Shown here: piece after piece, positions 56,473 to 58,710 of the stretch
Position numbering within the stretch: the stretch's first letter is position 1
How the letters are laid out: each line of letters opens with the position of its first letter
Assembly: GCF_023702065.1 (NCBI RefSeq)
Contig: NZ_QFDM01000001.1
Location: forward strand, 806,001-870,000
Direction: 5' to 3'
DNA: 64,000 nt
Source of the DNA: Methanoculleus oceani
GTDB taxonomy: Archaea > Halobacteriota > Methanomicrobia > Methanomicrobiales > Methanoculleaceae
Program-made: the position numbers and the translations under genes
The notes under the pieces: model-generated
Databases searched by the model: none
What the model saw: the letters and a program-made list of their open reading frames with translations, nothing else
What the model was told of the DNA's origin: nothing

Positions 56473-56877
56473 ATGAAACAAGGTCTGCTTACCGATCGCC
56501 AGAAAGAAGTGCTGCGTTACCGGAAGAAAGGGTTGACGCAGCAACAGATCGCAGAGATCATTCATACCTCAAAGGCAAACGTCTGCACCATCGAGAAGGC
56601 TGCTCTCGAGAACATCTCGCGTGCACGTGAAACGCTTGAATTCCTCTATACCCTTGACGCCGTTCACCTCTGCACGCTTCAGAGCGGCCTCGACCTGCTC
56701 AAGGCCCCCGAGATCATCTATGCTGAAGCCGAGAAGAAGGGATTAAAGGTCAAATACGACACGATCTCGCTCATTAACAGGCTCAGGGACGCCAACCCCG
56801 AGCGGTTCAGGGGGAGGCAGGTCCGCGAGGACGTTGAGATCTATATCAACAAAGACGGCGACCTGTATTTCGGGTAA
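56473..56877 (+). CDS. tfx: Tfx-family DNA-binding protein
   Basis: The 134-residue protein has an N-terminal helix-turn-helix, LLTDRQKEVLRYRKKGLTQQ then IAEIIHTSKANVCTIEKAAL, and a C-terminal domain ending EDVEIYINKDGDLYFG. In Methanothermobacter, Tfx binds near the promoter of the molybdenum formylmethanofuran dehydrogenase operon. Here it is divergent from mtd, another gene of the same pathway. A TATA-like GTTTAAAT at 56443-56450 implies an almost leaderless mRNA. Confidence 0.9.
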   Translation: MKQGLLTDRQKEVLRYRKKGLTQQQIAEIIHTSKANVCTIEKAALENISRARETLEFLYTLDAVHLCTLQSGLDLLKAPEIIYAEAEKKGLKVKYDTISLINRLRDANPERFRGRQVREDVEIYINKDGDLYFG

Positions 56878-57073
56878 TACGGTTTCCCGGGTGCGCGCAT
56901 GGCTCTCGTGTCGGAGCGGGAGCCCCGCGGAGGATCTCTCCCGGTCGTACGTCTGCGAACGGGGCCTTTGCAGCCCTTCATTCATCCCCCTGACCGCTCA
57001 GTTCGGTGAACCGATGCCGCGCCTGCAGCAAATAGTCGTTTGGCGTAAATTCCCGGGAAATCCGATAACAAGG

Positions 57074-57080
57074 TTTATAT
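57074..57080 (+). promoter_or_regulatory. TATA-like box before the structured region and uL3
   Basis: TTTATAT at 57074-57080 within AACAAGGTTTATATCTCATT predicts rightward transcription from about 57103. No protein start with family resemblance follows until uL3 at 57697, so the transcript would begin with almost 600 untranslated bases or represent a separate RNA. The 196 bases between the Tfx-type gene and this box show nothing else. Confidence 0.5.
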
Positions 57081-57102
57081 CTCATTTTAAGTAATGTTTA
57101 AG

Positions 57103-57690
57103 AAACCGCTCTGCACAATTCCGTCCGGACCCGGGAGGCAGCCGGCACCTCACGTGCCTCTGATCCCCGGGATCTCTCCGGTTCCGCAATATACGCGGAA
57201 CAGAGACCCGCGGCGGGAGGGTGCGGAAGGTACCAGACAAAGCGAAGGTCGAACCCTCCTCACGGAGGGCCGATGTCGATATGGAGTTGTGCTCGTCACA
57301 ACGGGATGACAGGAGCTGGATCTGATCGAGACGTTGGGCCAACGCCAGTGCAGCGCGCCCGGTTCCGGGAACACTCTTCCTGGAAACGTCGGAGAGTCAG
57401 GATCTATTGGCGACGACTGGAATGCACCCGGTGCACACCGGGACGGCAGCGGAGAGGGCGATCGAAACGCGCAGAGACGGATGTCTCTGTTGATCCTCAC
57501 GCTCCGCTGCCTCCATCAACTGTTTCCCCTGACACCCGGGCGTTAATGCCTGGGTGTTCGATATCCTGCCCCGTACGGGTTCGCCAGAAGGCCTATCGTG
57601 CCGGCACGTCCGGCACGGGGCCCGGCGCATGCATCGCCCTGCAGCAGGCCTGCAGTCGATGCATCACGCTACAACGCACGAAGGGTTGAT
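57103..57690 (+). ncRNA. Candidate large structured RNA or leader upstream of the ribosomal operon
   Basis: No protein is recognised in this stretch, but it is dense in stem-loops. Examples: GTTCCGC/GCGGAAC (57181-57201) extended by TCTCT/AGAGA; CCCTCC/GGAGGG (57254-57269); GTTGTG/CACAAC (57286-57302); TTCCGGGAA/TTCCTGGAA (57363-57385, one G-U); CCCGGT/ACCGGG (57427-57442); CAGAGAC/GTCTCTG (57472-57489); ACACCCGGGC/GCCTGGGTGT (57532-57557, one G-U); CGTGCCGG/CCGGCACG (57597-57617); ATGCATCG/CGATGCAT enclosing CTGCAG/CTGCAG (57629-57664). CCCTCC can alternatively pair with GGAGGG at 57216-57221. The hallmark sequences of RNase P RNA and SRP RNA were not found. Strand is assumed from the TATA-like box. 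Confidence 0.55.
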
Positions 57691-57696
57691 TGAAAC

Positions 57697-58710
57697 ATGC
57701 CGAAGATTAACAGACCACGCAGAGGATCCCTCGCGTACAGCCCGAGAAAACGGGCAAAAAGCCCGGTTCCCCGCTACGGCTCATGGCCGGAGTATACGGG
57801 AGCCCCGGCCGTCCAGGGATTCGCAGGGTACAAGGTGGGGATGACCCACGTCATCATGGTCGATGACCACAAGAGCAGCCCCACCGAAGGCAAGGATGTG
57901 ATGGTGCCGGTGACCGTGGTTGAGGTCCCGCCCATGCGGGTGGCAGGCGTGCGCGCATACAGTGAGGACACCTACGGAAAGCATGCGCTGACCGAAGCGT
58001 GGACGACCGACCTCGATGAGGAGTTGTCCCGCCGCATCAACGTCCCGAAGAACCACGACACCGCCGCCGCTCTCGACGCCATCAAAAACGCAGTCGGCGA
58101 AGGCAGGGTCGCGGAACTCTACGCTCTGGCCTACACCCGGCCCATGGAACTCACCGGCGTCCCGAAGAAGGTCCCCGACCTGATGGAGATGCGGATCGCC
58201 GGCGGAAGCCTTGACGACCAGGCTGCTTACGCTGCCGAGATTCTCGGGAAGGAGATCACGATCTCCGGCAACCTCGAGGTCGGCGAATACGTCGACGTGA
58301 CCGCAGTTACCACCGGCAAGGGCACGGAAGGCCCCGTCAAGCGCTGGGGCGTCCAGGTCCGGAAGCGGAAACACTCCCGCGGCGGCAAGAAGCGTCACAT
58401 CGGCAACCTCGGTCCGTGGCACCCGCACCATGTTCGGTGGCAGGTCCCGCAGTCGGGCCAGATGGGCTACCAGCAGCGCACCGAGTTCAACAAGCGCATT
58501 TTAAAGATCGGCACCGATGGCGACGACATAACGCCGGCAGGCGGATTCCTGCACTACGGCCTTGTGCGCGGTCCCTACGTGCTGATCAAGGGCTCCGTCC
58601 CGGGACCGAACAAGCGGCTGGTCCGGATACGCTCCGCGATACGGCAGGGTGAACACACCGTCCGCACGCCGACGATCAGTTTCGTCAGCGCGCAGAGCCA
58701 GCAGGGGTGA
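57697..58710 (+). CDS. rpl3: Ribosomal protein uL3
   Basis: The 337-residue archaeal/eukaryotic-type L3 shows [77 protein letters not shown] and [20 protein letters not shown]. It is the first gene of the cluster and helps shape the peptidyl transferase centre. The long structured stretch lies immediately upstream. Confidence 0.98.

Follow-up and report, generated by a model that had tools for sequence, protein, structure and literature searches.

Genomic context of the leader

The analysed window comprises 64,000 nt of the Methanoculleus oceani genome (contig NZ_QFDM01000001.1, positions 806,001 to 870,000 of the forward strand), and all coordinates given below refer to this window unless another source is named. 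On its plus strand, the gene for ribosomal protein uL3 (57697-58710; PF00297, E 8e-91) is the first gene of the uL3-uL4-uL23-uL2 operon and is preceded on the same strand by a region of 588 nt (57103-57690). In an initial annotation made from the sequence alone, this region was described as a dense hairpin array and as a candidate undescribed large RNA, either standing alone in the manner of the ornate bacterial RNAs or serving the S10/spc cluster as a leader of unusual length. A gene for a Tfx-type DNA-binding protein (56473-56877; TFX_C, E 8e-32) lies directly upstream on the same strand, and an ORF of similar size occupies this position in many Methanoculleus loci.

The TATA-like box that had been noticed ahead of the region proved to be real and conserved across Methanoculleus. 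The TATA-box region AAGGTTTATATC (57071-57082, plus strand) is preserved in nearly all complete Methanoculleus rows of the alignment and has its aligned counterpart in the TATA region of a SPOUT methyltransferase gene that is still intact (see below); its position implies a transcript start probably near 57100-57106. At the opposite end, the Shine-Dalgarno region of uL3 (GAAGGGTTGATT, 57680-57691, plus strand) is near-invariant in 25 leaders and similar in genomes with an intact SPOUT gene. RNase P and SRP RNA are absent from the region, as had been stated: neither gave an Rfam match there, and RNase P RNA was located at G000:C2:58322-58666.

Folding and structural organization

The minimum free energy of 57103-57690 was -283.7 kcal/mol, compared with -238.2 kcal/mol (sd 7.45) for dinucleotide shuffles, corresponding to a z-score of -6.1, and 0 of 100 shuffles were as stable; a repeat of the folding run gave a z-score of -7.6. 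For neighbouring regions of equal length (the uL3 coding sequence, the Mtd coding sequence, and the Tfx gene with its spacer) z-scores of only -0.8 to -1.9 were obtained. Across 21 Methanoculleus leaders the 184 consensus pairs were 94.4% paired, falling to 38-45% when pairing partners were slid; since the alignment used for scoring also yielded the structure, this percentage is favoured, and the stronger measure is the count of pairs changed on both sides, which was 35 compared with 19.5 (sd 2.8) after shuffling (0 of 500). The covariation check suggested for related genomes thus yielded compensatory changes, and the hairpins are real and conserved. Folding, covariation and the model matches described below support the reading as a large structured RNA and long S10/spc leader, so that 57103-57690 can be regarded as a heavily folded RNA leader with a presumably regulatory role.

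Several parts of the leader, all on the plus strand, can be distinguished. The sequence-variable 5′ hairpin domain (57105-57231) contains the helices 57110-57125/57212-57227, 57128-57138/57164-57174 and 57144-57148/57154-57158, which are backed by the consensus fold and covariation in the 21 leaders. The central multibranched domain of about 340 nt (57247-57585), supported in Methanoculleus only, is closed in the consensus fold by the helix GGTCGAACCC/GGGTTCGCC (57247-57256/57577-57585) and by a second helix (57267-57279/57558-57571); these closing helices are 94-100% paired and nearly invariant, hence they give scarcely any covariation signal. Likewise, covariation carries no information for the hairpin GTTGTGC/GCACAAC (57286-57302), because it is invariant in the 21 leaders. 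Within the same domain, covariation was found in 5 of the 10 outer pairs of a hairpin arm of variable length (57445-57511), and strong compensatory change in a fast-evolving hairpin (57532-57557; both sides changed in 6 of 9 pairs). The consensus fold places further hairpins (57590-57662) 5′ of the uL3 ribosome-binding site.

A conserved RNA core and Rfam family RF03135

In a scan with all 4227 Rfam families, the only match in 57103-57690 was RF03135, the L4-Archaeoglobi r-leader motif, which covers 79 nt (57322-57400, plus strand; 47.7 bits at a gathering score of 34.5). The description of the RNA as undescribed therefore does not hold for this stretch; it stands for the remainder of the region, which has no Rfam match, and for the larger structure, the range and the origin of the RNA, which lie outside RF03135. 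The family is listed for Archaeoglobi upstream of rplC, rplD, rplW and rplB, with covariation rated as borderline, and was proposed as an r-leader whose ligand, uL4, was assigned from bacterial precedent only (Eckert and Weinberg 2020, PMC7247131).

A covariance model of 134 positions (R1) was built from 20 sequences, with its structure set from RF03135 and an extension of the outer stem. In M. oceani it matches a core of about 127 nt (57300-57426, plus strand; cmsearch 89.5 bits, E 4.3e-19). Upstream of uL3, R1 gave 84 matches over 86 Methanomicrobiales sources, a count in which a few sources represent one and the same species, while the 20 building sequences match by construction. Among Methanoculleus leaders the core is near-invariant while the flanking sequence diverges. 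Two loci (L096 and L101) carry a run of repeated CTTCGCGA-type units directly 3′ of the core, possibly a local hairpin or a repeat expansion. The 84 noncoding copies contain 246 double-changed cells compared with 106.5 (sd 9.9) after shuffling, and their covariation score of 0.305 compares with 0.159 for shuffled and at most 0.093 for slid alignments. The alignments of these noncoding copies were fitted to R1 and are biased toward the model. In 39 coding copies, 83 double-changed cells were counted compared with 24.8 (sd 5.1). With these shuffle and slide controls, the structure of RF03135 is backed by covariation.

Of the 393 genomes sampled from the phylum, 247 have a match to R1 and 222 a match to RF03135. 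The core is larger and far wider in range than RF03135 as described, and a motif known only from Archaeoglobi and rated as borderline gains strong support as an element of the whole phylum whose boundaries are clear. New here are the larger extent of the core, its wide range, its location in coding sequence and its retention after loss of the protein; in the open-access literature searched, no earlier report of the core within coding sequence or in Methanomicrobiales was found. A resemblance of the core to 23S rRNA was considered and rejected: R1 finds no match in the organism's own 23S rRNA (best score 5.1 bits, chance level), which leaves rRNA mimicry unsupported.

The core within intact SPOUT methyltransferase genes

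In haloarchaea, other families and three Methanomicrobiales genomes, the core lies within an intact SPOUT ORF (PF02598/COG2106) which adjoins uL3 on its upstream side; for the non-Methanomicrobiales loci fetched before genomes with the RNA only were sought, this was always the case. The same holds for the RF03135 motif in family f9. This family was taken as Archaeoglobaceae because the four genomes tested carry DsrA, one of them matching 3MM5, the Archaeoglobus fulgidus enzyme, at 919 bits (next 510). In its namesake lineage the Rfam "leader" thus overlaps coding sequence. The location inside coding sequence in most species suggests why the element may have been overlooked. The protein family (MTH1, 1K3R) is a candidate m3U enzyme (PMC2584109).

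Codon usage carries a trace of the RNA. In non-haloarchaeal SPOUT genes the excess codon identity is 0.262 over the element compared with 0.058 outside (p 5e-5), and the element is the sole block of synonymous constraint; in haloarchaeal genes the values are 0.362 and 0.236 (p 0.001), with conservation reaching somewhat upstream as well. A by-eye comparison of the genome lists gave 176 of the 393 genomes with both RNA and gene, 71 with the RNA only, 10 with the gene only and 136 with neither; judging by this last group, some lineages can dispense with the element. Haloferax volcanii has both RF03135 and PF02598. Sulfolobus acidocaldarius has PF02598 without RF03135 and, together with the 10 genomes of the phylum that have PF02598 without an R1 match, indicates that presence of the protein does not entail presence of the RNA. 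In G082, G131, G160, G183 and G190 (families f18, f24 and f28) a SPOUT gene without an RNA match was seen; here either the RNA was lost from the gene or it diverged beyond the model.

In the protein alignment, intact Methanomicrobiales SPOUT genes encode an HNGM-type insertion, which is absent from the SPOUT proteins of the other aligned lineages; its position matches that of the hairpin at 57286-57302.

Loss of the protein and retention of the RNA

The M. oceani leader is collinear with the intact SPOUT gene of locus L152, from the promoter and a dead start codon to the Shine-Dalgarno region of uL3. The stretch 57255-57441 (plus strand) is homologous to the intact coding sequence: blastn aligns the two at 69% over 198 columns with an E-value of 6e-20 and a score of 85.4 bits, whereas none of 100 shuffles scored above 29.7 bits. 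A second blastn piece pairs 57065-57113 with positions 3-51 of L152 and ends at its ATG, which is CTG in the leader (57111-57113, plus strand; E 5e-4). A third (57553-57583, plus strand) corresponds to the codons of the C-terminal motif VFNVVPGQGS and now supplies the 3′ half of the closing helices; with 71% over 31 nt and an E-value of 1.3 it is weak in isolation and is backed by its order. The piece at the uL3 ribosome-binding site is collinear as well and not significant by itself. A profile search of the organism's own genome gave no PF02598 match.

The leader is thus the remnant of a former SPOUT rRNA-methyltransferase gene whose reading frame has been destroyed, an origin from a protein-coding gene that the first reading had missed. 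Its statement that the open frames lack family resemblance is correct insofar as they have no Pfam match, and incomplete insofar as the DNA of the region is homologous to a protein gene. For the organism itself, loss of COG2106 predicts that the m3U modification of 23S rRNA (PMC2584109) is lost or made by another enzyme.

Continued coding of a leader peptide or cryptic protein as the cause of the conservation is hardly credible. An open frame of 138 codons does span the core, but the longest frame has no Pfam match, indels that are not multiples of three occur even in the core (a 2-nt deletion in L014 and L015), and a relic from another family (L176) has stops in all three frames. Profile hits on the plus strand cluster at SPOUT positions 94-155, each of them weak (the best, in L176, has an E-value of 2e-5); a conserved protein frame was rejected.

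Intact SPOUT genes (PF02598) were found in 3 of 61 sampled Methanomicrobiales, scattered on ribosomal-protein trees in which several nodes are weakly supported, such that 11 losses are needed if loss is irreversible and 6 changes by Fitch. For the RNA state on the tree, covariance-model scoring was used in place of regex-based scoring, which undercounted. The 71 genomes with the RNA only consist of 68 Methanomicrobiales and G068, G355 and G376. The relic in G068 spans most of the intact gene of a congener (61% over 635 columns) and retains the RNA core, with stops in all three frames over the element, while G355 and G376 keep scarcely more than the core. The protein was therefore lost and the RNA kept in almost all Methanomicrobiales as well as, independently, in two further families. 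As the RNA persists where the SPOUT protein is absent, the methyltransferase is ruled out as an obligatory ligand.

An ordinary decaying pseudogene, folded owing to base composition and recent descent, would also be a gene relic, yet this explanation is extremely improbable for the leader. Its folding z-scores (-6 to -8) are set against -0.8 to -1.9 in the neighbours, its core is near-invariant between diverged flanks, the compensatory changes in noncoding copies contradict it, and the RNA was retained after several gene losses. The intact gene with RNA, the fresh relic, the noncoding leader and the minimal core instead form a natural series for the passage from gene to regulatory RNA.

Linkage to the uL3 operon and proposed function

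In M. oceani the end of the core lies 270 nt upstream of uL3 on the strand of the operon, and the spacing between core and uL3 ranges between 174 and 497 nt across loci. About 174 loci were fetched by uL3, RNA or gene models, and uL3 is contained in all of them bar those of RNase P and 23S rRNA; loci recovered later through the RNA alone also contain it. A minimal noncoding form, scarcely more than the core, was observed in family f36 (L177 1501-1606 and L178 1501-1603), where it follows closely on a TATA-like sequence and precedes uL3 by some 70-120 nt.

This constant association disfavours the stand-alone ornate-style RNA of the initial annotation, with OLE, GOLLD and HEARO giving no match. 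A trans-acting RNA that is processed from the leader, or ends within it, and acts away from the operon would fit the length of about 590 nt, the many stable hairpins and a promoter-like box of its own; it is nevertheless quite improbable, given that uL3 follows in every checked locus, that the leader is collinear with the uL3 ribosome-binding region, and that a bacterial-style promoter and terminator scan returned nothing on the plus strand before uL3, hence no terminator-like site.

Little is known about how the S10/spc ribosomal operon is controlled in archaea. We consider it probable that the RNA acts in cis as the leader of the uL3-uL4-uL23-uL2 operon, has outlived its host gene and may mediate ribosomal-protein feedback. 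The core arose within, or was long part of, the coding sequence of a SPOUT rRNA methyltransferase located directly ahead of uL3. In the lineage leading to Methanoculleus, as the sequence shows, both the start codon and the reading frame of this gene were lost and it became shorter; the promoter, the RNA core and the ribosome-binding site of uL3 were retained, and the remnant refolded into a larger structure. Leader and operon may be transcribed as one unit. A ribosomal protein of the operon, most likely uL4, would bind the core when present in excess over rRNA and lower operon expression through attenuation or mRNA destabilisation; direct masking of the start site is disfavoured because the distance between core and uL3 varies. 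That the ligand is a ribosomal protein of the operon is proposed by analogy, and uL4 is favoured on precedent. There is perhaps an even chance that the host gene, by losing its protein, repeatedly became a purely noncoding leader and that the Methanoculleus relic was rebuilt into a new RNA of several domains, which is held together by long-range helices and has gained regulatory capacity.

Binding of the core by a non-ribosomal factor, such as an RNase, a processing factor or a k-turn protein like L7Ae, which would determine how stable the operon mRNA is or how it is processed, is unlikely. The variable distance to uL3 would agree with it, as would the control that L7Ae exerts on archaeal mRNAs by way of k-turns located in their leaders or coding sequence (PMC5539422), but an r-leader position before a ribosomal-protein operon favours a ribosomal protein as ligand.

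Comparison with known systems

The cis-acting leader proposed here shares with L7Ae/k-turn control (PMC5539422) an archaeal mRNA structure, found in coding sequence as well, and post-transcriptional control; its core is, however, a different RNA. The gene for the SPOUT protein (PF02598/COG2106) is homologous to and collinear with the Methanoculleus leader, whereas the leader has no intact frame and encodes no protein. The leader of the S10 operon in E. coli is regulated by L4. We know of no structural homology between that leader and the archaeal core. Common to both are a structured leader, a homologous operon and feedback by a ribosomal protein, as proposed here; they differ in that L4 binding and its mechanism belong to the E. 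coli leader (also cited in PMC7247131), whereas the archaeal counterpart is only predicted. RF03135 (PMC7247131) has the same position upstream of rplC-rplD-rplW-rplB and the same outer stem, inner stem and two hairpins, and it differs from the element described here in that the Methanoculleus core sits within a leader of about 590 nt and that in most lineages the core is located in the coding sequence of a host gene.
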